From Zobellia galactanivorans (lineage in GTDB: Bacteria; Bacteroidota; Bacteroidia; Flavobacteriales; Flavobacteriaceae): a stretch of 64,000 nt of DNA. Below the pieces are notes generated by a model. That model was not told where the DNA came from, ran no database searches, and saw nothing but the letters and a program-made list of their open reading frames with translations. The stretch is from NCBI RefSeq assembly GCF_000973105.1, contig NC_015844.1, forward strand, positions 5,328,501 through 5,392,500. The letters are read 5' to 3'. Positions 49,109 to 61,655 of the stretch are shown here, in pieces. Position 1 is the stretch's first letter. The number at the start of each line of letters is the position of its first letter. Position numbers and translations under genes: made by a program.

Positions 49109-50335
49109 CTATTGTTTTTTTACTCCTTTAGCTACGTGACGTGTTTTTCTTTCCGAAGAAAAACGCATGATACTCTGGTAATCGCCATTATTGTATATAT
49201 GCGTCAATCCCCATCGTAAAATTTCGGTCGGTTCCTTTTCAACATCCGCTGTTCGGTTCAGTCCGATAGCATGGGCATTGACCCCTGGTATTACCGATTT
49301 AATTTCAAAGTTAATTCCGTCTGGAGCCCACTGGATCGTATTCTTTTCAGGACCATCTGTAGTGATCAACGAAGCAATACCTCCGTTATAAGGCCAAACA
49401 CAGATTTCATGACCACTATTGCTAATAGGGTTATATGGAGATTTCACGTAAGGCCCTTTGGGATTGTCGGCTATGGCCACACCATGACGTATCTGTCTTC
49501 CGCCGAAAGTAATCGCTTCACCCATCTGTTCCCCTTTGTAATAGAGATAGAATTTCCCCTTATAAGGTATAATACATGGATCATGTACTTTATGGCTATC
49601 AAAATCACCTTTTTTAATCACGGCGAAACGATCTTGCTCTTCACCCTTCCACACTCCGTTATCGGCAGGACTCAAAATAGGCTCTTCACTTTTGGTCCAT
49701 GGCCCGTCGGGAGAATCCGCCCAAGCCAGACCTACTTGATTTTTAACACGGACATTATAGGGTGATTTTACCGTTTGATAGCAGAGGTAGTACTTATCTT
49801 CCCATTTCATGATCTCAACGGTAAAAACGGAGCGATCATCATAAGCCCCTTTTTCACCTCTTGTTACTGCGGGACCTTCTTCTTTCCACGTCCAACCATC
49901 TTCGGAGGTAGCATACCAAATATCACATCGATCCCACGGAAAAACCTTATCTTTTTCAATATCCCCACCAAAACCTTGCGTTGGCCCGGTACTTTTAGAA
50001 TACCACACGTAGTACTTTCCATTCTCTTTGATTATGGCACTTGGATCACGACGAACGACACCTTCCTCATAAGCCAAATCCCCCTTTAAAGGTTGTAACG
50101 GACCAAATTGAATAAACCATTCATTACCCAAGTCCGTAGGCCATTTCAAGGCTCTTTTTGACGCAGCGCTCAAATGGTTGGTATCCGTAATGCCGAGATG
50201 GTCAATTTGTTCGGGAGTAAACGTCACCTTCTCTGGGCAATCATCTGTAGATTTCATTTCTTTTGTAGTTTTGGGAGAATTGCAGGCCGATACCAGCACC
50301 GCAGCAAAAATTAAAAATTGGGAGTATTTGTTCAT
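49109..50335 (-). CDS. GH117 family exo-alpha-L-(3,6-anhydro)galactosidase-like lipoprotein
   Basis: 408 aa with a lipobox ending at Cys18 (LVSAC). The five-bladed propeller of GH117 is evident: [10 protein letters not shown] with its catalytic Asp, [33 protein letters not shown] and [12 protein letters not shown], whose His corresponds to the proposed catalytic acid. Family members release L-AHG from neoagaro-oligosaccharides, but some paralogous clades have no proven activity on them, so the exact substrate needs caution. It heads the sugar-catabolic run, 51 bp after the AraC-type gene. Confidence 0.92.
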
Positions 50336-50386: not shown

Positions 50387-51118
50387 CTAATTGGCTCGAT
50401 TCATCGCGATATAATCGGACGGGGAAGTTCCATAGAACTTCCTAAAACACTTACTAAAATAATTGGGGTCGCCAAAACCGACCTGATAGCTGACCTCGGC
50501 AATCCGGAGCTCTCCACGGGAAAGCAACTCTCCCGCCTTCATCAGCCTTAAGTTCCTCATAAAATCCTTTGGCGCATGACCCGTTATTTTTTTTAATTTT
50601 CTAAAAAAGGTCGAACGACTGGTATTCATGTCGAATGAAAGGTCATCTACCCAATATGTATTGTCGGAGATATTTTCCTCTACAAAATCCAAAACCTTTT
50701 CAACAAACTCCCTATCCCCTGCTTCTAACGCGGAAAGATTCACCGTTAATCCAGGTTGACCCAAAGTGTTTTTTTCATCTACATCGCCCGCAAAAATCAT
50801 TTTACCCGCTTTACCCTTCAATATCTTGAAGTGTTCTGAAATATTTTGATCCATACCAAACTCTAGTACTTTCACTTTTGCCATCAAGGCATAAAATGCA
50901 TCAAGTAAAATAGCGGGCATATTCAATCCTTTTTCAAAGACCCCATTATACACCTGCACATCATCTCCGTAATCATCAACAAAATCTACATTAATATGTA
51001 GCTCACCGTTTTGCAATACTCCATTCTGGTTTTCAACGTCACCAAGAGCATCTTCCCTTATAACAATTGTAGCATCCATATGGTATTTTTTTTGATTCAA
51101 ATAAGAAACTAGTTTCAT
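50387..51118 (-). CDS. AraC-type regulator with a hybrid two-component-like output domain
   Basis: 243 aa. Residues 1-125 are a sensor-like part of unknown fold. From about residue 135 the sequence (DREFVEKVLDFVEENISDN, VDDLSFDMNTSRSTFFRKLKKITGHAPKDFMRNLRLMKAGELL, IAEVSYQVGFGDPNYFSKCFRKFYGTSPSDYI) is the two-helix-turn-helix AraC domain, in the form usually found at the end of hybrid two-component regulators. It lacks the periplasmic and kinase parts. Its first nine codons lie inside a 40-bp palindrome. It is directly upstream of GH117 and probably controls that operon and itself. Confidence 0.9.
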   Translation of the reverse strand: MKLVSYLNQKKYHMDATIVIREDALGDVENQNGVLQNGELHINVDFVDDYGDDVQVYNGVFEKGLNMPAILLDAFYALMAKVKVLEFGMDQNISEHFKILKGKAGKMIFAGDVDEKNTLGQPGLTVNLSALEAGDREFVEKVLDFVEENISDNTYWVDDLSFDMNTSRSTFFRKLKKITGHAPKDFMRNLRLMKAGELLSRGELRIAEVSYQVGFGDPNYFSKCFRKFYGTSPSDYIAMNRAN

Positions 51119-51130
51119 ATTTGAATCAAA
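51091..51130. promoter_or_regulatory. Near-perfect 40-bp palindrome over the araC start codon
   Basis: The left arm TTTGATTCAAATAAGAAACT (51091-51110) matches the reverse complement of 51111-51130 at 19 of 20 positions. The single mismatch is the pair 51104/51117. The ATG at 51116-51118 lies inside the right arm. It may be a protein-binding operator or, in mRNA, a long hairpin that hides the start codon. A second copy lies at 60296-60327. Confidence 0.75.
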
Positions 51131-51274
51131 AATATATAAAAAATTGACATATAGACATATTTAGACCATCTTTTTTTAGGATATGCCCCACAATTTCCCT
51201 TAAAAAAATCAAAACCCTTATTTCTAGCTATCAGTCGATTAGCACAATGTTCCGGACAAAATATCCATAGACAT

Positions 51275-51306
51275 AAAAAAAAGACCTGCCAGACAGGTCT
51301 TTCTTA
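51275..51306 (-). terminator. Terminator of the first IclR gene
   Basis: AAGACCTG at 51281-51288 pairs with CAGGTCTT at 51295-51302 around a six-base loop. On the minus strand it ends in a run of T, about 60 bp past the IclR stop at 51363. Confidence 0.8.
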
Positions 51307-51362
51307 TCTTCCATCACCTCAAAAGTGATATTTAATTACTCCTATTTTTACTCCACAAAAAA

Positions 51363-52154
51363 TCAATGGGTCAAATATCCCAGCTTGGTAGAAATTACAA
51401 GGGCGTATTTCATAACGATTTTACCCTTACTTTCAAATTGCGATGCAGGAAGTCTACCGTAAGGAGCCGTAATCCAAAGTGCCGCTACGGGATAACCGTA
51501 CTCATTGAATATGGGAGCACCCACACAATTAATCCCTTCAATATCCTCGCTATTATCTACCGCATATCCTTTTTCCCGAACTTCTTTCAACACCCTCTTA
51601 AACTGTTTCTTTGATGTAATGGTATTTTCGGTAAACTTGGTCAGAGGTTTTCCGTTCAAGGCCATATCAGCTTCTTCCGAGGGAATATGGGCCAATATAC
51701 ATTTACCCCCTACCGAACTATGCAGATCAAATTGGGTACCAGGTTCAACAAATAGTTTGACCGGGTAGGAAGAGGGCACCTGTTCCAAAATAGTTCCCGT
51801 AGAGCCTAGAAGCACCCCTAGCATGACCGATTCCTTGAGCTCATCGCGCAATGCGCGCATGACGTCTATAGAATGCTCTACAATACTCTGTTCGTTCATA
51901 GAAGAAATACCAAGGGTCAGCATTTTTCTAGAAAGGGTTATTTTTTTGGTGGTTTCGTTCTTCTGAAGATAATTCTTGAATATAAGGGTACTGACAATCC
52001 GAAAAGCACTGGATTTTGTAATGGAAAGGGTTTCTGTTATTTCCGCAAGGGTCATACCTTTGGTTCGAGTAGCCAATAACTCAATAATCGAAAGCCCTCT
52101 CTCTAAGTTTGGAACATTGTAAGTGGACTTTAATTCTGCCTTCGGTTTCTTCAT
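51363..52154 (-). CDS. IclR family transcriptional regulator, copy 1
   Basis: 263 aa. The N-terminal winged helix-turn-helix (about 14-75: LERGLSIIELLATRTKGMTL, then ITKSSAFRIVSTLIFKNYL) is followed by the IclR effector domain (KCILAHIPSEE, then VDNSEDIEGINCVGAPIFNEYGYPVAALWI). KdgR-type members sense keto-deoxy sugar acids, which would fit the L-AHG pathway downstream; this is inference. It is nearly identical to the gene at 60562-61359. A conserved promoter sits before both. The AraC-type gene follows at 245 bp, after a terminator. Confidence 0.93.
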   Translation of the reverse strand: MKKPKAELKSTYNVPNLERGLSIIELLATRTKGMTLAEITETLSITKSSAFRIVSTLIFKNYLQKNETTKKITLSRKMLTLGISSMNEQSIVEHSIDVMRALRDELKESVMLGVLLGSTGTILEQVPSSYPVKLFVEPGTQFDLHSSVGGKCILAHIPSEEADMALNGKPLTKFTENTITSKKQFKRVLKEVREKGYAVDNSEDIEGINCVGAPIFNEYGYPVAALWITAPYGRLPASQFESKGKIVMKYALVISTKLGYLTH

Positions 52155-52171
52155 TTTAAAATATTATATGC

Positions 52172-52206
52172 GCAATTTAACAATCTTGGGCGTATTTTCG
52201 CAAAAA
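52172..52206 (-). promoter_or_regulatory. Conserved candidate promoter of IclR copy 1
   Basis: Read on the minus strand, TTTTTG (52201-52206) and TAAATTGC (52172-52179) are spaced by 21 bases, a usual Bacteroidota -33/-7 spacing. The same boxes at almost the same spacing precede IclR copy 2, although the flanking bases differ. Confidence 0.45.
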
Positions 52207-52249
52207 TTTGCATAGGCTCCCATAGAGAGACTCCCCTTCGACCAATCTT

Positions 52250-53896: not shown

Positions 53897-54170
53897 TTAT
53901 TCTATATCCTGATTTAATTTAAACAAGTTGTGATAACCGTCATTATTTGCAACTAGAATAAATTTACTGCCTTTTGTATTCAACGCGGCTATATTACGAA
54001 CATCTTTATCCGCAAAGAAACCCGATTGCAAATTAGGCACCAAAACGAAAGTGCCTTTACCATTTCCTTTCAGAAAAGTTCCGATGCCAGCATCTGAGCG
54101 GGTCGTTTCAACTTCAGATTGCTTGTTATTATCGGCCAACACCAAGTATTTGTTCCACCTCTGTAGTCCA
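53897..54170 (-). pseudogene. C-terminal remnant of an FG-GAP/VCBS-repeat protein
   Basis: About 90 codons. The residues VEVETTRSDAGIGTFL-like stretch, NGKGTFVLVPNLQSGFFADKDVRNIAAL and the end GSKFILVANNDGYHNLFKL match the C-terminal tail of FG-GAP/VCBS-repeat proteins that often accompany SusC/SusD pairs. Upstream the frame hits a stop and there are no further repeats. It is the tail of a lost gene, 4 bp from the start of the TPR-LuxR gene. Confidence 0.6.
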
Positions 54171-54819
54171 TGGTGCCATTTACATCAGGTTTATAAAAAA
54201 CTAAAATTAAAGTACCAATTCTTAAAAGCCCAACAATGTTAAGAAAAGCCCCATAAGAACGCTTCCCTTTAAAAGGTTTAAAAATCGGTTTTTCATAATT
54301 GATTACATTTTAATTGTGTAGTTCTGAGTTAATTTTTTATAACAAAACAATAGGCCTCAAATTATCACCTTAGAAATATTACCGTCCCTTTTTTGCTAAA
54401 TCGCCCAAAAAACCTAAAGTGAATGTATGTAATATGTGTTAGTTTTTTGCACAATCGTTCCTAGACAAAAACTGAACAACATTAACTTTCAATGTTAAAA
54501 TAAAAACTACATATAACTCATAATCAACAATTTAACACCAACAACAAACATAAATCAAATAATAGACAACTGACAATTATGTAGCTCCAGTGCAAGAATA
54601 TAAGAAAGTGAATATCTACTTTGAGTAAAGTATATTTAGGGCAGTCCCTTGCATTTTAAGATGAAGAAAATCCGTTTTATTAGCATATTTCATCTAAAGA
54701 ATAGGCAAGCGCACATACGATTTGATTCTTATCCAAATGGATTTAAGAAACTCGTCCATGTAAAATTTTAGGACTTTATAAAAATGGATTTTCACTAAAT
54801 AAACATTTGGCTATTTGAA
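54171..54819. other. Non-coding region between two gene remnants
   Basis: About 650 bp, very AT-rich. It contains no protein-like frame. Given the gene remnants on both sides it is probably decayed coding DNA, but nothing in it could be assigned. Confidence 0.5.
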
Positions 54820-54990
54820 GTTCTCCACTAGAGCGTAATTCCTTCGCCTTCTTAAACCTTATTTTTTTATAAAATCCTTAGAGGCACACTGCGGACTGTT
54901 TTTTAATCTCCTAAAAAAGTAGAGCGACTCGAATTCATATCGAACGATGGATTACCTACCCCATAGGTATCGTCTGAGATATTCTTCTCA
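54820..54990 (-). pseudogene. Decayed AraC helix-turn-helix part, paralogue of the gene at 50387
   Basis: On the minus strand this stretch aligns with 50500-50680 of the intact AraC gene by eye at roughly 60 percent base identity. Shared blocks include TAAAATCCTT, CTAAAAAAG, GAGCGACT-like, ATTCAT(A/G)TCGAA, and GAGATATT. Stops and frame breaks prevent translation. The N-terminal part is not next to it; codons resembling the AraC start are found 5.3 kb away at 60296-60327, beyond the SusC/SusD pair. Confidence 0.65.
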
Positions 54991-54995
54991 ATAAG

Positions 54996-55023
54996 ACGGG
55001 AGGTTCTTTTAAGAACCTCCCGT
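54996..55023. terminator. Strong hairpin after susD
   Basis: ACGGGAGGTTCTT at 54996-55008 pairs with AAGAACCTCCCGT at 55011-55023 around a two-base loop, 13 perfect pairs. It lies about 100 bp past the SusD stop at 55125 and next to the AraC remnant. The following T tract is weak on the minus strand. Confidence 0.7.
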
Positions 55024-55124
55024 TTATCTGAATTTATTGAAGAAACTTCCGAAATACTTTGTCTCAACATTTCCTTTTTTCAGTCGTATTCATCAAAAAA
55101 TTTACTATCTAATATTCAAACTTA

Positions 55125-56873
55125 TTACAGTGATGAATTTTGTGTCAAAACTCCAGGCTGAAGGTCTAATTGTACTTGTGGTATTGGCCAATAATTGTTT
55201 TTACCAGAAGTAAAAGAACTGCCAGACAACCATGGTAGCTTATTGTCCTTCAACTCACTAGACAAATAATTGTTTAAAGTACTATCAGCAATTCCCCATC
55301 TTACTAGATCATAGAAACGCATTCCCTCGAGTGCAAATTCTAATCTCATTTCGTGTCTTACGGCCATCCGAGCATATTCTACACTAGGAAAAGAATCGTA
55401 GAGCCCTAATTTATAGTTTGCGGCAGGTTGTGAGTAATCTACTATGATAGGATTGCCTTCTTCAAAAGTAGTATTTGATACTTTACCCATTACAATATCG
55501 TCAGCTGCCCTCTGTCTTATCCGATTTACCAATGCAAGAGCTGTAGGTAAATCGTTTTCCTCTACTGCGACTTCTGCTCTCCATAATAATACGTGACCAA
55601 GCCTTAGCAACCTGAAATTGTTACCATTTACCCCTGGTGCCCAATAACCGGACTCAGTTGAAATTACACCTCTATTACGCTTATAGAACATGTTTTTCTT
55701 ATTCATGAAAGGCCCCATGTTCAATTGATCAGACATCCAATCGCTTCCACTCATTGGCCCCCAATCTAAAAATGGGATACCTCTTCTTCCAATAGTCCAA
55801 TCAACCCTAGGATCTAATAAATGACTAGTCGGTGTAAATTCTTCCGTATCTGAAATTTGGTAATCCTCTAAAAGAAGGTCATCCTGAAAACTATCTAACA
55901 ATGGAAGACCATTATCTTCTACTTTATACGCATTGAAAAGGTCAAAACTAGGTGCACTATAAGAGTAACCCAGCCCTTCAACATTTGGATACAAAGTCTG
56001 GTGATCAACGCCGGAATTATGTACACCTGCCCCATCATTTACAGAATATTGAATTTCAAAAATACTCTCCCCATTATTTTGATGTTCTTCATCAAAATTA
56101 TTGTAAAAATGAGGCTCTAACTGAAAAGGTCCCTCTTCAATAATGTTATCTAGAAGTGGTTTTGCTTCCGCAAATTCACTCTGAAACAAATGAACTCGTG
56201 CTTTTAATGCCTTTGCTGCCCATTGTGATGCCCTACCAACTTCTGATGGTGCCGGATCTAGATGGTCAATCCCAAATTGAAGATCATCCTCTATATCATC
56301 CCAAATCTCCCGATCGTTTTTAACCAAAGCTGGATCAACATCCTCGGTTATATAGGGTACTTTTTCAAATTTAATTCTTAGTTGAAAATGAAACCATGCT
56401 CGTAAGAATTTAGCTTCGGCTTCAATTTGGTCAGCCTTTTCTGTCGATATTACTTCTCCGGCCGTTGCTAAAACACGAAGAACATCATTAGAGCGCGCTA
56501 CCCCATCAAAATTAACACCCCAGGCACCATTTAACCATTCATTATCTGACCTTACTTCATATCGTTCTATATCATTAATTTGCGACCAACCTCCATTGGT
56601 ATCCCCTCTATGCATATCATCAGAAGGAACGTCTCCCCAAATCCAATTGGTTCCAGAAGCCTCTCCTTGGCCACCCTTAGGACTACCGTTACTAGAGTAT
56701 CCATCAATTAATGAATATGCACCTATAAGCAATCCATTTACCCCTTCCTCATTGGCGAGGGTTAATTCGTTTACGGTACCCACAGGCTCCTCATTAAGAA
56801 AATCATCACTACAAGAGGTTATCAAAACCAAAATTGAGATGGCAAAACTATTTGCGAAAAATTTATTTTTCAT
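55125..56873 (-). CDS. SusD/RagB-like outer-membrane lipoprotein
   Basis: 582 aa. A lipobox (LITSC) is followed by SDDFLNEEPVG, a frequent SusD start. EAKFLRAWFHFQLRIKFEKVPY, the helical QWAAKALKARVHLFQSEFAEA region, and the C-terminal RHEMRLEFALEGMRFYDLVRWG signature are present. It should bind the oligosaccharide for the SusC protein encoded 20 bp upstream. Upstream regulator genes and the downstream AHG operon make an agar- or porphyran-type galactan the likely ligand. Confidence 0.95.
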   Translation of the reverse strand: MKNKFFANSFAISILVLITSCSDDFLNEEPVGTVNELTLANEEGVNGLLIGAYSLIDGYSSNGSPKGGQGEASGTNWIWGDVPSDDMHRGDTNGGWSQINDIERYEVRSDNEWLNGAWGVNFDGVARSNDVLRVLATAGEVISTEKADQIEAEAKFLRAWFHFQLRIKFEKVPYITEDVDPALVKNDREIWDDIEDDLQFGIDHLDPAPSEVGRASQWAAKALKARVHLFQSEFAEAKPLLDNIIEEGPFQLEPHFYNNFDEEHQNNGESIFEIQYSVNDGAGVHNSGVDHQTLYPNVEGLGYSYSAPSFDLFNAYKVEDNGLPLLDSFQDDLLLEDYQISDTEEFTPTSHLLDPRVDWTIGRRGIPFLDWGPMSGSDWMSDQLNMGPFMNKKNMFYKRNRGVISTESGYWAPGVNGNNFRLLRLGHVLLWRAEVAVEENDLPTALALVNRIRQRAADDIVMGKVSNTTFEEGNPIIVDYSQPAANYKLGLYDSFPSVEYARMAVRHEMRLEFALEGMRFYDLVRWGIADSTLNNYLSSELKDNKLPWLSGSSFTSGKNNYWPIPQVQLDLQPGVLTQNSSL

Positions 56874-56893
56874 CTTTTCTATTTTTTTTAAAA

Positions 56894-59800
56894 TTATAAT
56901 GAGATATTCAATCCCAACATGATCTGTTTAGATATTGGCCAAGTACCCACATCAACCCCTCGGTCAATTTCTTGTGGAACGCCATTTTCTCTCTTAGCAC
57001 TAATTTCAGGATCTAGCCCTGAATAGTTGGTAAACGTGAATAAATTTGAGCCAATTACATACAATTTCATATGTTTAAGGTGCAGCTTTTCTATTATTTC
57101 ATCAGGAAGGGTATACCCCACCTGTAGGTTTTGAATACGTAAAAAAGAGCCATCCTCTATATAAAGCGTTGAAGCATTTTGCTCAAATGCAGTTGAAGTA
57201 GATGCTTTAGGTAAAGTAGCATCATTATTATCCTCTAGGTAAGGACTTCCCCATGAGTTATATAATCTTTCCGGACTATTTGGACCTTCAAAAAGTCCGT
57301 ATTTAGTAAATCTACTTGTGTAATTCGCCAAATCATTCCCCACACTTGCATAAAGTGTTGCCGAAACATCAATATTTCCAAATCCCATACCTAAACGGAA
57401 ACCTGCCGTAAAATCCGGATGGGGGTTACCGATATAGGTACGATCTTCTGGAGTAATCTCTCCATCGCCATCCACATCTCTAATTTTCAAATTACCCGGT
57501 TCATTATAAGTACCATTAGTAGCATGTGCATCCGCTTCACTTTGCGTTTGAAAAATACCATCAACTACGTAACCATAATACTCAGGAAAAGATCTTCCCA
57601 CTTCCGTTCTAGTATAGATTTGCTGACGTGTTGGAAATCCCTGTATAAACTCATTCCCATTATCAGAAAGTTTAGTGACCTCATTTTTATAAGCCGTAAA
57701 CGTGGTCGACATATTAAGGGTAAACCAATCATCCAATGCTGAAGTACGGTACGAAAGCGATATGTCTACCCCCTTATTTGACATCCCCCCTATATTTACC
57801 GAAGGTTCAATAACATCACCCACAACTTGCGGAATTGCCACGGTAAACAACATATCCTCAGTATCCTTTTTCCAAAAATCCACAGACAAATCCAATTTTC
57901 TAAATAAAGTGGCATCAAAAGCAATATTAGTAGACGTGGTAGTTTCCCATTTAGCATTTGGATTACCAATTGCCAAAGACTGATATCCTTGAGTAATCGT
58001 ATTATCCGATCCACCAATAGCATAATAAGATGATCCAGGGTCCGACTCATATGTAGTGAAACTATTGTAATTCCCGATTTGATCATTACCCGATTGCCCC
58101 CAACTTGCTCTAAATTTTAAATAACTGAGCCAGTCTTCAGTACCACTCAAAAAATTCTCTTTTGACGCCACCCAACCTAAAGATGCAGCTGGAAAGATTC
58201 CATATCTATTTTCAGCACCAAAACGAGATGAACCATCACGCCGTACAGTCAAGTCTAAAATATACTTTTTTGCATAGTCGTAATTAATTCTAGAGAAATA
58301 GGAAAATAATGTAGACGCAAATCCGCTACCATTGTTCAACTGGTTACTAGCACCTGCATCCAACACTAAGAAATTAATATCATTAGAAAGGTACTCCTGT
58401 CTAGATGCAGAAATAGTTCTATATGCTATTCTTGAAGATTCCATACCAAAAAGAAAATCTACGCTATGGTCTTCTCCAAATGTGTTTTTATAGTTAAATG
58501 TATTTGTCCAGTTCCAACGTGTTTCATTGGCACTACTTTCAGTAAGAGTGGTAGATTTAGCACCGGTATTTTGTTCCCAAGCAGCAAAAGAAGGTGAGAA
58601 ATTATTAAACAAATCCACATCATAACCCAACAAAGTCTTGATCGTTACATTTTTAATAGGTTCAATCGCCGCATAAACATTTCCGGTAATGTTGTATTTT
58701 TTATTACTATTATCTTTAAGCCTATCTAAAAAACCTACAGGATTAGGACCATCATTAATATTAGCTCCACCAACAACACCACCAGCCCAGTTTCCAGCAA
58801 TATCCCTAACAGGAACCAATGGACTAGCTAAATAGATTTGATTAAATAAGTTATTATGTGAATTGTTACCGCCCCAGCCTTTGGTTTCTCCATAAGTAAC
58901 CCCTAAACGCTGACCAATATTCAACCATTCAAAAGGATTTGAATCAACGTTAGACCGGAAAGAAATTCTATTAAATGACGTATTCTTAAGTATACCATTC
59001 TCTTCAAGAAAACCTGCCTGAAAGGAATAGGAGGTTTTTTCAGAGCCCCCCATCAATGACAAATCGTAATTCTGAATCAAACCGTGTTGATATATTTCAT
59101 CTAACCAATCCGTTCCCTGCGGATTTGATTTGGTAATGGGATAATTTACTTGGTCATACAAAGCAGGATTAACATTGGCCGCACCTGAAACCCCTCCGTT
59201 TGGATACAAGTACTCATTAAGAACCGGTGTTGCCCCACTTCCGAAATGGGCATTAGTTTGTGGCAGACCATCGTTCTCTAACTCCAACCACAACATCTCT
59301 CCTATCAATTGAGGATCCATCATGATATCATACTTGGCATCCGAAAAACTCATGCCCGTTTTCACACTGATATCCAGCTTCACTGCTTGATTCTTCTTAC
59401 CGGTTTTCGTGGTAACCAAAATAACACCATTGGCACCTCTTGCACCATAAATAGCCGTAGAGGATGCATCTTTTAAGATTTGAATGGATTCAATTTGTCC
59501 TGGAGGAGGCGATTGCGCACCTTGAACACCATCAACAACCCATAGTGGACCGTTATTATTTATGGTTCCCATACCCCGTATTCGTACCTCGGCATCACCT
59601 CCTGGTGTAGAGGCACTAATTGTCGTCACCCCCGAAGCACTACCCTGAAGGGCCTTACTTACATTTGAAACGGGTTGTTGTTCAAGATAATTTTTATCAA
59701 CCGTAGCTACTGCACTGGTAAGGGCATCCTTACTTCTTGTACCATAACCGATAACCACAACTTCATCTAATTGTTGTTGATCGGTAAGTAAAGTGATATT

Positions 59801-60076
59801 CAATGTGGTCTGATTACCCACTTTAATGTTTTGGGTACCATAACCAAGATAGGAAATAACAAGTACATCCTCTGGGGATGCTTCAATACTAAAATTTCCG
59901 TCAAAATCGGTGGTTACACCGTTAGAGGTCCCTTTGATCAAAATGTTGACCCCCGGAATAGGCCCTTGCTCATCGGAAACGGTTCCCGTCACCATGGTTT
60001 GCGCCTGAATATGGCTTGAAAACAAGAAAAAAATGGCAAGAAAAACTCCCATTTTCAAAAATTTTAAAAGCTTCAT
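56894..60076 (-). CDS. SusC/RagA-like TonB-dependent transporter
   Basis: 1060 aa. The signal ends near SHIQAQ (residue 26), and a carboxypeptidase-regulatory-like domain follows with VTGTVSDEQGPIPGVNILIKG. The plug begins with DEVVVIGYGTRSKDALTSAVA and GVILVTTKTGK marks its end. The barrel ends NISL. No STN domain is seen. It imports oligosaccharides with the SusD partner. The start lies 220 bp from a perfect 32-bp palindrome, so control by a DNA-binding protein there is likely. Confidence 0.96.
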   Translation of the reverse strand: MKLLKFLKMGVFLAIFFLFSSHIQAQTMVTGTVSDEQGPIPGVNILIKGTSNGVTTDFDGNFSIEASPEDVLVISYLGYGTQNIKVGNQTTLNITLLTDQQQLDEVVVIGYGTRSKDALTSAVATVDKNYLEQQPVSNVSKALQGSASGVTTISASTPGGDAEVRIRGMGTINNNGPLWVVDGVQGAQSPPPGQIESIQILKDASSTAIYGARGANGVILVTTKTGKKNQAVKLDISVKTGMSFSDAKYDIMMDPQLIGEMLWLELENDGLPQTNAHFGSGATPVLNEYLYPNGGVSGAANVNPALYDQVNYPITKSNPQGTDWLDEIYQHGLIQNYDLSLMGGSEKTSYSFQAGFLEENGILKNTSFNRISFRSNVDSNPFEWLNIGQRLGVTYGETKGWGGNNSHNNLFNQIYLASPLVPVRDIAGNWAGGVVGGANINDGPNPVGFLDRLKDNSNKKYNITGNVYAAIEPIKNVTIKTLLGYDVDLFNNFSPSFAAWEQNTGAKSTTLTESSANETRWNWTNTFNYKNTFGEDHSVDFLFGMESSRIAYRTISASRQEYLSNDINFLVLDAGASNQLNNGSGFASTLFSYFSRINYDYAKKYILDLTVRRDGSSRFGAENRYGIFPAASLGWVASKENFLSGTEDWLSYLKFRASWGQSGNDQIGNYNSFTTYESDPGSSYYAIGGSDNTITQGYQSLAIGNPNAKWETTTSTNIAFDATLFRKLDLSVDFWKKDTEDMLFTVAIPQVVGDVIEPSVNIGGMSNKGVDISLSYRTSALDDWFTLNMSTTFTAYKNEVTKLSDNGNEFIQGFPTRQQIYTRTEVGRSFPEYYGYVVDGIFQTQSEADAHATNGTYNEPGNLKIRDVDGDGEITPEDRTYIGNPHPDFTAGFRLGMGFGNIDVSATLYASVGNDLANYTSRFTKYGLFEGPNSPERLYNSWGSPYLEDNNDATLPKASTSTAFEQNASTLYIEDGSFLRIQNLQVGYTLPDEIIEKLHLKHMKLYVIGSNLFTFTNYSGLDPEISAKRENGVPQEIDRGVDVGTWPISKQIMLGLNISL

Positions 60077-60096
60077 TTTTGTTTGGTTTAAGTTAA

Positions 60097-60118
60097 TTGA
60101 GTGTTAGTTTTCACTCAA
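60097..60118 (-). promoter_or_regulatory. Leader hairpin before susC
   Basis: TTGAGTG at 60097-60103 pairs with CACTCAA at 60112-60118, eight-base loop, 21 bp upstream of the SusC start. It could be an operator half-site pair or a hairpin in the 5' leader. The evidence is the inverted repeat alone. Confidence 0.35.
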
Positions 60119-60295
60119 AGTCAATTGAGTTATCGTAGCTAATACTATGTCTATAATGACAGAGTATTATTTTAGGTCTAATTAAATCCAGTGTTCCTTC
60201 GCGCCTTCCTTTAAGTTCAAGTTCATTAGCAAAATCGCCTTTCCGTATGGACATCCCATTTCCAGAACTTCAGATGACAATTCCAAAAACAAATA

Positions 60296-60327
60296 ATTCA
60301 AATATGAAACTAGTTTCATATTTGAAT
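60296..60327. promoter_or_regulatory. Perfect 32-bp palindrome upstream of susC, paralogous to the araC palindrome
   Basis: ATTCAAATATGAAACT (60296-60311) is followed directly by its exact reverse complement. The right half and about 45 bp beyond it match the region before the intact araC (51111 onward) closely, including TTTGAATCAAAAATATATAAA. On the minus strand it begins MKLVSYLN, identical to the first eight AraC residues, but then leaves homology and stops after about 45 codons. The gene is gone, yet the palindrome is more perfect than in the intact copy. Confidence 0.75.
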
Positions 60328-60561
60328 CAAAAATATATAAATATTTGATATATCGATATATTTCGTAACTATTTTTTTAAGATATCTTTTACTTCCCTTG
60401 CTCAAAAAACCGATTTCGGAGTTTTTAAAAAACTTGACCATTCGGTACACAAGGGGTCTAAACCACAGAAGTAGGCCTTTTTTTAACATTAAGGCATGAC
60501 AAAAGAGGACACACTTGTACAACAAGTTTAGTGTGACCATTTTACAAATCGAAAGACAGTT

Positions 60562-61359
60562 TTATAGAGACTGGGTCAAATAACCAAGTTTTGTAGAAAT
60601 TTTCATCGCATATTTAAATACGATCTTTCCCTTATTATCGAACTCCGAAACCGGAAGACGACCATATGGCGCCGTAATCCATAGCGCCGCTACCGGATAA
60701 CCATATTCATTGAATATGGGGGCCCCCACACAATTAATCCCTTCTATATCCTCACTATTATCTACGGCATATCCCTTTTCCTTAACTTCCTTCAACACAT
60801 TTTTAAACTGTTTTTTTGAAGTAATTGTATTTTCCGTAAACTTGGTCAAGGGCTTCCCTTTCAAGGCCATCTCAACTTCTTCCGGAGGGATATGGGCCAA
60901 TATACATTTACCCCCCACAGAAGTATGTAAATGGAATTGGGTACCGGGCTCAACAAAGAGTTTAACAGGGTAAGAAGAGGGAACCTGTTCCAAAATGGTT
61001 CCCGTAGAGTCAAGAAGCACCCCTAGCATAACCGACTCCTTAAGCTCATCGCGCAACGCACGCATAACATCAATAGAATGCTCTACAATACTCTGTTCGT
61101 TCATAGAAGAAATACCTAGGGTCAGCATTTTTCTAGAAAGGGTTATTTTTTTGGTAGTTTCGTTCTTCTGAAGATAATTCTTGAAAATAAGGGTACTGAC
61201 GATCCGAAAAGCACTGGATTTAGTAATGGAGAGAGTCTCGGTTATTTCAGCCAAGGTCATACCTTTGGTTCGTGTAGCCAACAACTCTATAATAGAAAGC
61301 CCCCTCTCTAAGTTTGGAACATTGTAAGTGGACTTTAATTCTGCCTTCGGTTTCTTCAT
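60562..61359 (-). CDS. IclR family transcriptional regulator, copy 2
   Basis: 265 aa, about 95 percent identical by eye to the protein at 51363-52154, with changes mostly in the effector domain (DSTGT for GSTGT, PPEEVEMALKG for PSEEADMALNG) and the tail. Residues 14-75 form the winged helix-turn-helix. Because the DNA-binding domains are virtually the same, both copies should recognise the same operator. It is the first gene upstream of the susC palindrome region; the interval 60077-60561 holds that palindrome and no intact gene. Confidence 0.93.
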   Translation of the reverse strand: MKKPKAELKSTYNVPNLERGLSIIELLATRTKGMTLAEITETLSITKSSAFRIVSTLIFKNYLQKNETTKKITLSRKMLTLGISSMNEQSIVEHSIDVMRALRDELKESVMLGVLLDSTGTILEQVPSSYPVKLFVEPGTQFHLHTSVGGKCILAHIPPEEVEMALKGKPLTKFTENTITSKKQFKNVLKEVKEKGYAVDNSEDIEGINCVGAPIFNEYGYPVAALWITAPYGRLPVSEFDNKGKIVFKYAMKISTKLGYLTQSL

Positions 61360-61376
61360 TCTTAAACACTAAGTCC

Positions 61377-61413
61377 GCAATTTAACAATCTTGAGCCTAT
61401 TTTTCTCAAAAAA
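61377..61413 (-). promoter_or_regulatory. Conserved candidate promoter of IclR copy 2
   Basis: Minus strand: TTTTTTG (61407-61413) then TAAATTGC (61377-61384) with 22 bases between. It parallels the promoter of copy 1, including a shared CAAGATTG stretch between the boxes. The rest of 61414-61655 shows nothing else recognisable. Confidence 0.45.
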
Positions 61414-61655
61414 TTGCACACGGTCTAAGCAAACAAGCTAACCCTTGCTGTGACAAAGATATTCTTCATACTCGGTCAAACCTTTCAATTTTGTTTGTTC
61501 CCGACCATCCGTTATCTACAAAAAGGCAACAAGCTTGACCATTGACCTAACTAAAGAGATCAACTGATCCAAGACACTTTTCTCTTTGTCAACCGAATTA
61601 TGTTCACGTCAATATATTGCGGTAATTCCAATACTCGATTTCGTTTCATTTTAAA

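Follow-up and report, generated by a model that had tools for sequence, protein, structure and literature searches.

A susCD transporter pair appears to have lodged between a predicted IclR operator and an araC gene in Zobellia galactanivorans

How does a SusC/SusD transporter pair come to lie between an iclR regulator gene and the broken end of an araC gene? The question is raised by the window analysed here, a stretch of 64,000 nucleotides of the Zobellia galactanivorans genome (contig NC_015844.1, positions 5,328,501 to 5,392,500). A sequence-only reading had proposed that a regulator block was duplicated and that a new SusCD pair then replaced the interior of the second araC, so that the start of this gene would lie upstream of the pair and its helix-turn-helix (HTH) part downstream. 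Our results point to a different course. With a probability of about 75%, susCD lodged between a predicted IclR operator and araC, which would have given the pair an operator and cost araC its N-terminal region.

All genes given below with coordinates lie on the minus strand. The intact block consists of iclR copy 1 (51363..52154, placed by the iclR tree) and a full-length araC (copy 1, 50387..51079), an intact ORF with a C-terminal AraC HTH (HTH_18/HTH_AraC) and a likely start MDATI at 51079. The GH117-type gene that follows (49109..50335; its Pfam match is Glyco_hydro_43) heads the 3,6-anhydro-L-galactose catabolic genes, and we take it to be ahgA. The locus resembles the agar-induced cluster ZGAL_4657-4669, which holds ahgA (GH117), 3,6-anhydro-L-galactose catabolism, a TBDR/SGBP pair and two regulators (PMC5613140). 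The second IclR noted at 61359 is confirmed: iclR copy 2 (60562..61359, 265 aa, intact, Pfam IclR_C and HTH_IclR, also placed by the iclR tree) shares 87% nucleotide identity with copy 1 across 847 nt. Next come susC (56894..60076, a TonB-dependent transporter) and susD (55125..56873, a surface glycan-binding lipoprotein), both of the A type and both intact. Their RagA/SusC and SusD/RagB domains stand in tandem, with TIGR04056 above cut-off at 868 bits, PF07980 at 126 bits and further Pfam support for susC. Behind susD lies an araC pseudogene (54819..55076), assigned from alignments and the araC tree, of which only the 3′ part is present, with its frame broken. A hairpin within it (54996..55023, 12-bp stem; folding energy −24.2 kcal/mol over 61 nt, z −5.3), similar in letters to a sequence in Z. 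uliginosa, is possibly the end of the susCD transcript.

The araC start that had been read at about 60319 (MKLVSYLN) did not hold up. Those letters fall inside a perfect 30-bp palindrome (60297..60326; 32 bp with flanks) and are a chance reading of it. The match between 60296-60385 and 51095-51184 (85.6% identity, E 2e-22) is promoter sequence and ends at the 3′ edge of the palindrome, whose counterpart in copy 1 (51096..51125) has one mismatched pair of positions. When seven full-length araC genes were translated, MKLVSYLN appeared with an ATG and in frame only in Z. galactanivorans copy 1; the common start is M(D/E)ATI. The palindrome stays behind iclR whichever gene follows, and therefore MKLVSYLN is not an araC start; as a relic of araC it was rejected too, since the same palindrome is also present where no araC follows (Kriegella and the loci in which a dehydrogenase gene comes first). 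We also rejected the presence of araC sequence between operator and susC, where the best hit of the spacer to araC, at E 0.025 over 16 nt, is not significant.

All 41 flavobacterial loci counted have the palindrome behind their iclR ortholog, two of them in a weak form; this count leaves out four distant loci (L063-L066) of the 45. The best match covers 24–30 of 30 positions and lies within 450 nt behind iclR; for L060 it is the one of two palindromes that is farther from the gene. The weak cases, L054 and L056, both reach 24/30, and L054 has a match of 25 elsewhere in its own locus. Among 200 single-base shuffles per locus, one equalled the palindrome match for L056 and none did for any other locus. 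The first recognised gene after the palindrome is a dehydrogenase in 33 loci, araC in four, susC in two, and an aldehyde dehydrogenase and a distant dehydrogenase in one each. A blind pattern search gave matches in 17 of 397 genomes of the family and none in the controls; its sites adjoin the iclR ortholog in all 13 non-Zobellia genomes, which partly overlap the 41 loci. It missed the palindromes of G018 and G234, two genomes of other genera, which match at 25/30. Searched genome-wide, seven of eight other Zobellia have one site and Z. uliginosa DSM 2061 has two. With up to three mismatches the Z. galactanivorans genome holds one place (1585857) besides both operators, the reversed control likewise giving three matches per strand, and partial matches of a 67-base operator query there are weak (from E 0.09). 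The sequence TAnnTTTG, presumably the −7 promoter box of Bacteroidota, stands at offset −9 in 34 of the 41 loci and at −8 in two more. In copy 2 the box TATTTTTG (60328..60335, minus strand) fits this pattern and ends one base short of the palindrome, which would place the transcript start within the left arm; the box TATTTTTG of copy 1 (51127..51134, minus strand) has counterparts in neighbouring loci.

What binds such a site? Most likely, judging from its build and position, the palindrome is an IclR operator. IclR-family sites have half-boxes GKTYC/GRAMC, a group-1 spacing of 7–8 nt and tandem centres 18–22 nt apart (PMC8222616). In Kriegella and Z. amurskyensis the palindrome is GGTTC-N6-GAAAC-N2-GTTTC-N6-GAACC, which reads as tandem IclR half-sites in inverted pairs with centres 18 nt apart, although the box spacing is 6 nt. 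The outer box letters are near-invariant across the 41 loci, all of which also carry the regulator gene; those of Z. galactanivorans (GATTC and GAATC/GAATT) are at least one letter off the consensus. Like the operators of IclR and KdgR (PMC8222616), the site has palindromic half-boxes with centres 18 nt apart beside the regulator gene; unlike them, it unites four boxes, alternating throughout, in a single 34-bp palindrome with spacing 6. Bacteroidetes/Chlorobi make up 0–1.6% per column of the IclR-family table in that source. In the literature searched we found no IclR operator in agar loci and no paper naming both Zobellia and IclR. The term IclR is absent from the main text of the agar cluster paper, and its passages considered here contain no operator, duplication or araC remnant (PMC5613140).

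The HTH part of a second AraC, placed by the first reading at 54990-54820, is borne out: 54819-54989 matches the araC HTH region 50508-50680 with 71% nucleotide identity (E 2e-15). By comparison with the short araC of G005 the remnant reaches upstream to about 55076; 54819-55076 contains stop codons and frame changes, and in the araC tree it groups with araC copy 1. We compared the slot between operator and GH117 gene in nine Zobellia genomes, Kriegella and the two other genera. It holds either a full-length araC or susCD with a downstream araC whose 5′ half is missing. In Z. amurskyensis and G005 this truncated araC has an open frame; in Z. galactanivorans it is a pseudogene. The short araC of Z. 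amurskyensis corresponds to the 3′ part of the full araC of G001 (90.6% nucleotide identity over the piece compared). The idea that SusCD replaced part of araC stands in that the pair takes the place of the 5′ part; the interior is not what is missing. In Kriegella no trace of araC was found from susD to GH117 (best E 0.47); about 13 kb upstream of its iclR there is an AraC match at 28%. In an AlphaFold model of AraC from five sequences, residues 1–129 have pLDDT below 50, too low to assign the N-terminal region. On the distribution of the two contents, the full-length araC would be the older one overall, because operator, araC and GH117 gene follow each other in G018 and G234, where susCD is elsewhere, and a full araC occupies the slot in five other Zobellia.

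That the SusCD pair is new to the locus is contradicted by Kriegella, which has the pair at the same operator, and by G018 and G234, which carry a 79–80% relative at another place of the same cluster. We measured exchange as the identity at 4-fold sites of the susC interior plus susD against the flanks. Z. galactanivorans and Z. amurskyensis agree at 78.0% of 583 such sites in the susCD interior and 38.2% of 498 in the flanks; the values are 74.8% of 580 and 38.1% of 501 for Z. galactanivorans and G005, 77.3% of 594 and 48.8% of 504 for Z. amurskyensis and G005, and 57.5% of 557 and 31.8% of 446 for Z. galactanivorans and Kriegella. Control identities are 55–57% for rpoB (two Z. galactanivorans pairs), 45–56% for susC_B and 43–61% for susD_B. 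By this measure the susCD interior was exchanged between species. The leader and the initial 480 nt of susC have diverged like the flanks (4-fold identity 39–50%), so either a long residence was followed by exchange of the interior or the donors are unsampled; comparison with Kriegella gave no identity step at susC 480 nt (p 0.42 and 0.44). Separate and recent landings of susCD are no more than a possibility. In iclR, the sister genomes G001 and G005 are 95–100% identical up to column 300; identity is 41–85% in the tract from there to the araC linker and 97–100% thereafter. As it is also low, at 67%, over the 100 columns preceding iclR, those 300 columns are what defines the left border of the swap.

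The duplication of the regulator block agrees with the trees, in which both Z. galactanivorans copies of iclR pair, as do those of araC. The IclR proteins are identical over residues 1–116, with 17 differences over 263, and iclR copy 2 is broken in Z. uliginosa DSM 2061. A duplication of the iclR-operator-araC block seems to date to the ancestor that Z. galactanivorans and Z. uliginosa share, and gene conversion between the copies could mimic a late duplication. The duplication need not have preceded the entry of SusCD, as had been supposed, because in Z. amurskyensis and G005 the locus is single and has susCD in this position as well.

The model in which SusCD split the second araC after the duplication would account for this pairing of the copies and for the genuine HTH remnant downstream. 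We nevertheless consider it improbable: its upstream piece is a palindrome shared with loci without araC, the susCD slot exists without duplication, and no intact second araC without SusCD was found in 34–38 kb from each of eight other Zobellia genomes. A better contender, though still unlikely, is an ancestral state of Zobellia and Kriegella with SusCD at the operator, full araC having been restored in other species via recombination with araC-bearing DNA. The Kriegella arrangement, the divergence of the susC 5′ end and leader, and the foreign tract that G001 could have received all fit this order, but the array of operator, araC and GH117 in two other genera and five other Zobellia speaks against it.

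Both these readings leave the palindrome as an operator; it would be least probable of all that it is instead an RNA hairpin (a leader attenuator) or a site-specific recombination site. As RNA it folds well (z −4.8 and −7.1), and homology between the two slot types (A and B) stops at its edge. Yet a transcript start expected within the left arm does not suit an attenuator, in 28 of the 33 dehydrogenase-first loci 7–15 nt separate the palindrome from the estimated start codon, its four alternating boxes are like IclR sites, and no recombinase was found among 18 neighbouring proteins searched in Pfam. A transposon or integron cassette was rejected as well: there is nothing but susC and susD between the edges, and repeats are short and imperfect, none joining the edges convincingly.

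If susCD did lodge between operator and araC, the events may have run as follows. Bound to the palindrome at the promoter, IclR would block transcription of the agar (3,6-anhydro-L-galactose) catabolic operon until an agar catabolite releases it. The earlier slot would have held operator, araC and then the GH117 gene. In Kriegella and part of the Zobellia lineages, susC-susD would have entered directly behind the operator, probably by recombination, deleting the 5′ part of araC (Zobellia) or the whole gene (Kriegella) and placing the transporter under operator control. A control shared by transporter and catabolic genes fits the agar induction of ZGAL_4657-4669 (PMC5613140). The gain of a ready-made operator, suggested earlier, agrees with the position of susCD directly behind the predicted site. 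The block would have been duplicated in the ancestor shared by Z. galactanivorans and Z. uliginosa; araC and the catabolic genes would have stayed with one copy, and the other carried susCD with the araC remnant, which decayed. Similarly, the carrageenan regulon has a PUL with susCD distant from the catabolic operon, and the carrageenan susCD is co-induced (PMC5698469); neither 'palindrom' nor 'IclR' occurs in the main text of that paper.

The palindrome is a candidate operator for the IclR regulator of agar use across Flavobacteriaceae, of which the literature searched gave no earlier description. The coming of a susCD pair under the control of a locus is rarely visible; here the old and new contents of the slot persist in sister species, the exchanged tract can be mapped and the likely operator is recognised by its conservation. 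Somewhat against the odds, the slot may even be one of exchange, in which interspecies homologous recombination in iclR/operator and in the 3′ part of araC swaps the contents and the truncated araC survives in some species as a regulator with a DNA-binding domain only. If this is true, such exchange changes what the repressor controls: a full araC or a transporter pair.

Comparison of the window with itself shows two similar regulatory blocks on the minus strand, iclR1 with araC copy 1 (50387-52154) and iclR2 with a susCD pair and a dead araC (54819-61359). The genome of Zobellia galactanivorans is a single contig of 5,521,712 bases, in which the window covers positions 5328501-5392500. The iclR copies (51367-52212 and 60572-61418) are 87% identical and the promoter places behind them (51095-51184 and 60296-60385) 85.6%. 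The two promoter places also share a 38-base inverted match (97%); therefore both are palindromic. An AraC start, MKLVSYLN at about 60319, had been proposed at the second place, and it is a piece of this palindrome. The helix-turn-helix remnant of araC claimed at the other end is real, since 54819-54989 matches 50508-50680 in copy 1 (71%, E 2e-15).

The palindrome, TTCAAATAWGAAACTAGTTTCWTATTTGAA, has two sites in Z. galactanivorans, two in Z. uliginosa DSM 2061 and one in each of seven other Zobellia genomes (pattern search with at most 3 mismatches; control hits 0). With iclR as the query we retrieved 41 flavobacterial loci (L022-L062) and scanned the 450 nt that follow the gene. The best match agrees at 24-30 of 30 positions in all 41, and single-base shuffles equalled it only in L056 (1 of 200). 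L054 and L056 have weak matches, 24/30 each; another place in the L054 locus scores 25. The first recognised gene behind the palindrome is zinc dehydrogenase in 33 loci, araC in four, susC in two, and aldehyde dehydrogenase and a distant dehydrogenase in one each. Of 397 family genomes put through a gene-blind pattern search, 17 have the palindrome (reversed control pattern, 0 hits); 13 of these are not Zobellia, and in all 13 the site adjoins an iclR ortholog. Some of these genomes are also represented among the 41 loci. Wenyingzhuangia loci carry two such palindromes about 80 bp apart behind iclR (L058 10893-11003; L060 1097-1209).

TAnnTTTG is the -7 element of Bacteroidota promoters. This box lies at a constant offset from the palindrome in 34 of the 41 loci and is shifted one base closer in two; the 18,450 bases scanned contain it 43 times. 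The palindrome of Kriegella aquimaris and Z. amurskyensis has the sequence GGTTC-N6-GAAAC-N2-GTTTC-N6-GAACC, i.e. two inverted box pairs 18 nt apart from centre to centre. In a survey of IclR-family sites (PMC8222616), boxes are GKTYC/GRAMC and tandem sites lie 18-22 nt apart; the boxes of the Kriegella and Z. amurskyensis site are of this type and the 18 nt between its centres fall within that range, whereas box spacing is 7-8 in the survey and 6 in the palindrome. We conclude that the palindrome is most likely the IclR operator. The first 116 residues are the same in IclR1 and IclR2, and therefore both proteins should read both sites.

What follows the operator differs between genomes. Five Zobellia genomes (G001, G004, Z. 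barbeyronii, Z. russellii and Z. uliginosa C3R17) have allele B, iclR-operator-full araC-GH117, each with another susCD pair further down, before an MFS gene (53-55% SusC and 63-64% SusD identity). Z. amurskyensis and G005 have allele A in single copy, iclR-operator-susC-susD-short araC-GH117, and Kriegella has iclR-operator-susC-susD-GH117 with no araC behind susD. Z. galactanivorans and Z. uliginosa DSM 2061 hold both slots, iclR2-operator-susCD-dead araC and iclR1-operator-full araC-GH117; iclR2 itself is broken in the latter. A/B homology reaches no further than the palindrome's 3' edge. The sequence-only reading, which put the pair inside a split araC, came close in that the transporter pair does lie where the front half of araC should be, under a ready-made operator; the upstream araC start was the operator misread.

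G018 and G234, which belong to other genera (operator match 25/30 in both), have the order iclR-operator-araC-GH117, and their susCD pair precedes an MFS gene upstream of iclR, with SusD 79-80% identical to the A type. For each of the two, the alignment of AraC with Zobellia AraC begins at the N-terminus; tblastn matched residues 5-238 (39%) in G234 and the HTH part only in G018. The slot with full araC is therefore the older state and the slot with susCD is derived. In the SusD tree the A type branches with Kriegella, G018 and G234 (91/88), the B type with G292 (87/97). Both branches fall short of the strongest support class, and the root depends on distant rows; the two pairs are probably of different ancestry.

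As for the regulator block, the iclR copies of Z. galactanivorans and Z. uliginosa form one clade (100/99), divided into copy 1 (92/92) and copy 2 (100/99), and the pieces of dead araC cluster with araC of copy 1 (100/99). These trees make the proposed duplication likely, as one event in the common ancestor, unless conversion between copies has mimicked it. AraC copy 1 (50387-51079) is fast-evolving, with 80% nucleotide identity between Z. galactanivorans and Z. uliginosa (GH117-ZnDH, 94%), and Pfam gives no match for its N-terminal half. In Z. amurskyensis the short araC is an open frame of 142 codons that corresponds to the 3' portion of the full gene. Its last 118 codons differ from G001 araC by 30 synonymous and 6 other codon differences, so this frame appears to be maintained; in G005 the 118 codons are open, with 4 synonymous differences from G001 and 1 other. 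Next to the dead araC, 53897-54800 is a deletion scar retaining just both ends of a block that Z. uliginosa DSM 2061 has kept between dead araC and the TPR regulator, namely another SusCD pair and its neighbours. The match to the GH117 gene of that strain (L022 11811-13030) is split into two pieces that overlap (residues 1-85 and 80-407), which points to a frameshift or assembly error.

The transporter pair has a history of its own. We compared 4-fold sites of the susC interior and susD with those of the flanks (iclR2, GH117, ZnDH, SDR). Identity is 78.0% (583 sites) vs 38.2% (498) between Z. galactanivorans and Z. amurskyensis, 74.8% (580) vs 38.1% (501) between Z. galactanivorans and G005, 77.3% (594) vs 48.8% (504) between Z. 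amurskyensis and G005, and 57.5% (557) vs 31.8% (446) between Z. galactanivorans and Kriegella. For comparison, rpoB gives 57.3% and 54.9% for the first two pairs, and B pairs between B species give 45-56% for susC and 43-61% for susD. In Zobellia pairs susC resembles the flanks over its first 480 nt (39-50%), and identity falls again at the end of susD; Z. galactanivorans and Kriegella show no identity step at the first 480 nt. By this pattern the susCD interior was exchanged between Zobellia species; operator, leader and susC start are either old in each lineage or derived from donors outside the sample. Between the sister genomes G001 and G005 a divergent tract runs from near codon 100 of iclR to the araC linker (41-85% identity in 100-column windows). 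The first 300 iclR columns are 95-100% identical and the sequence behind the tract 97-100%; upstream of iclR, where neighbourhoods differ, identity is low again (67%). An allele swap by recombination is the simplest account.

The cluster ZGAL_4657-4669 is agar-induced; its genes include ahgA, two regulators and a TBDR/SGBP pair (PMC5613140). The simplest mechanism would be that IclR represses at the promoter-overlapping operator and that an anhydrogalactose catabolite relieves repression. In Z. galactanivorans, with its duplicated operator, the transporter genes and the catabolic genes would form two separately driven units. A strong hairpin with a 12-bp stem lies inside the dead araC (54996-55023); Z. 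uliginosa, read by eye, has similar letters there with one G-U pair. This hairpin may end the susCD transcript.
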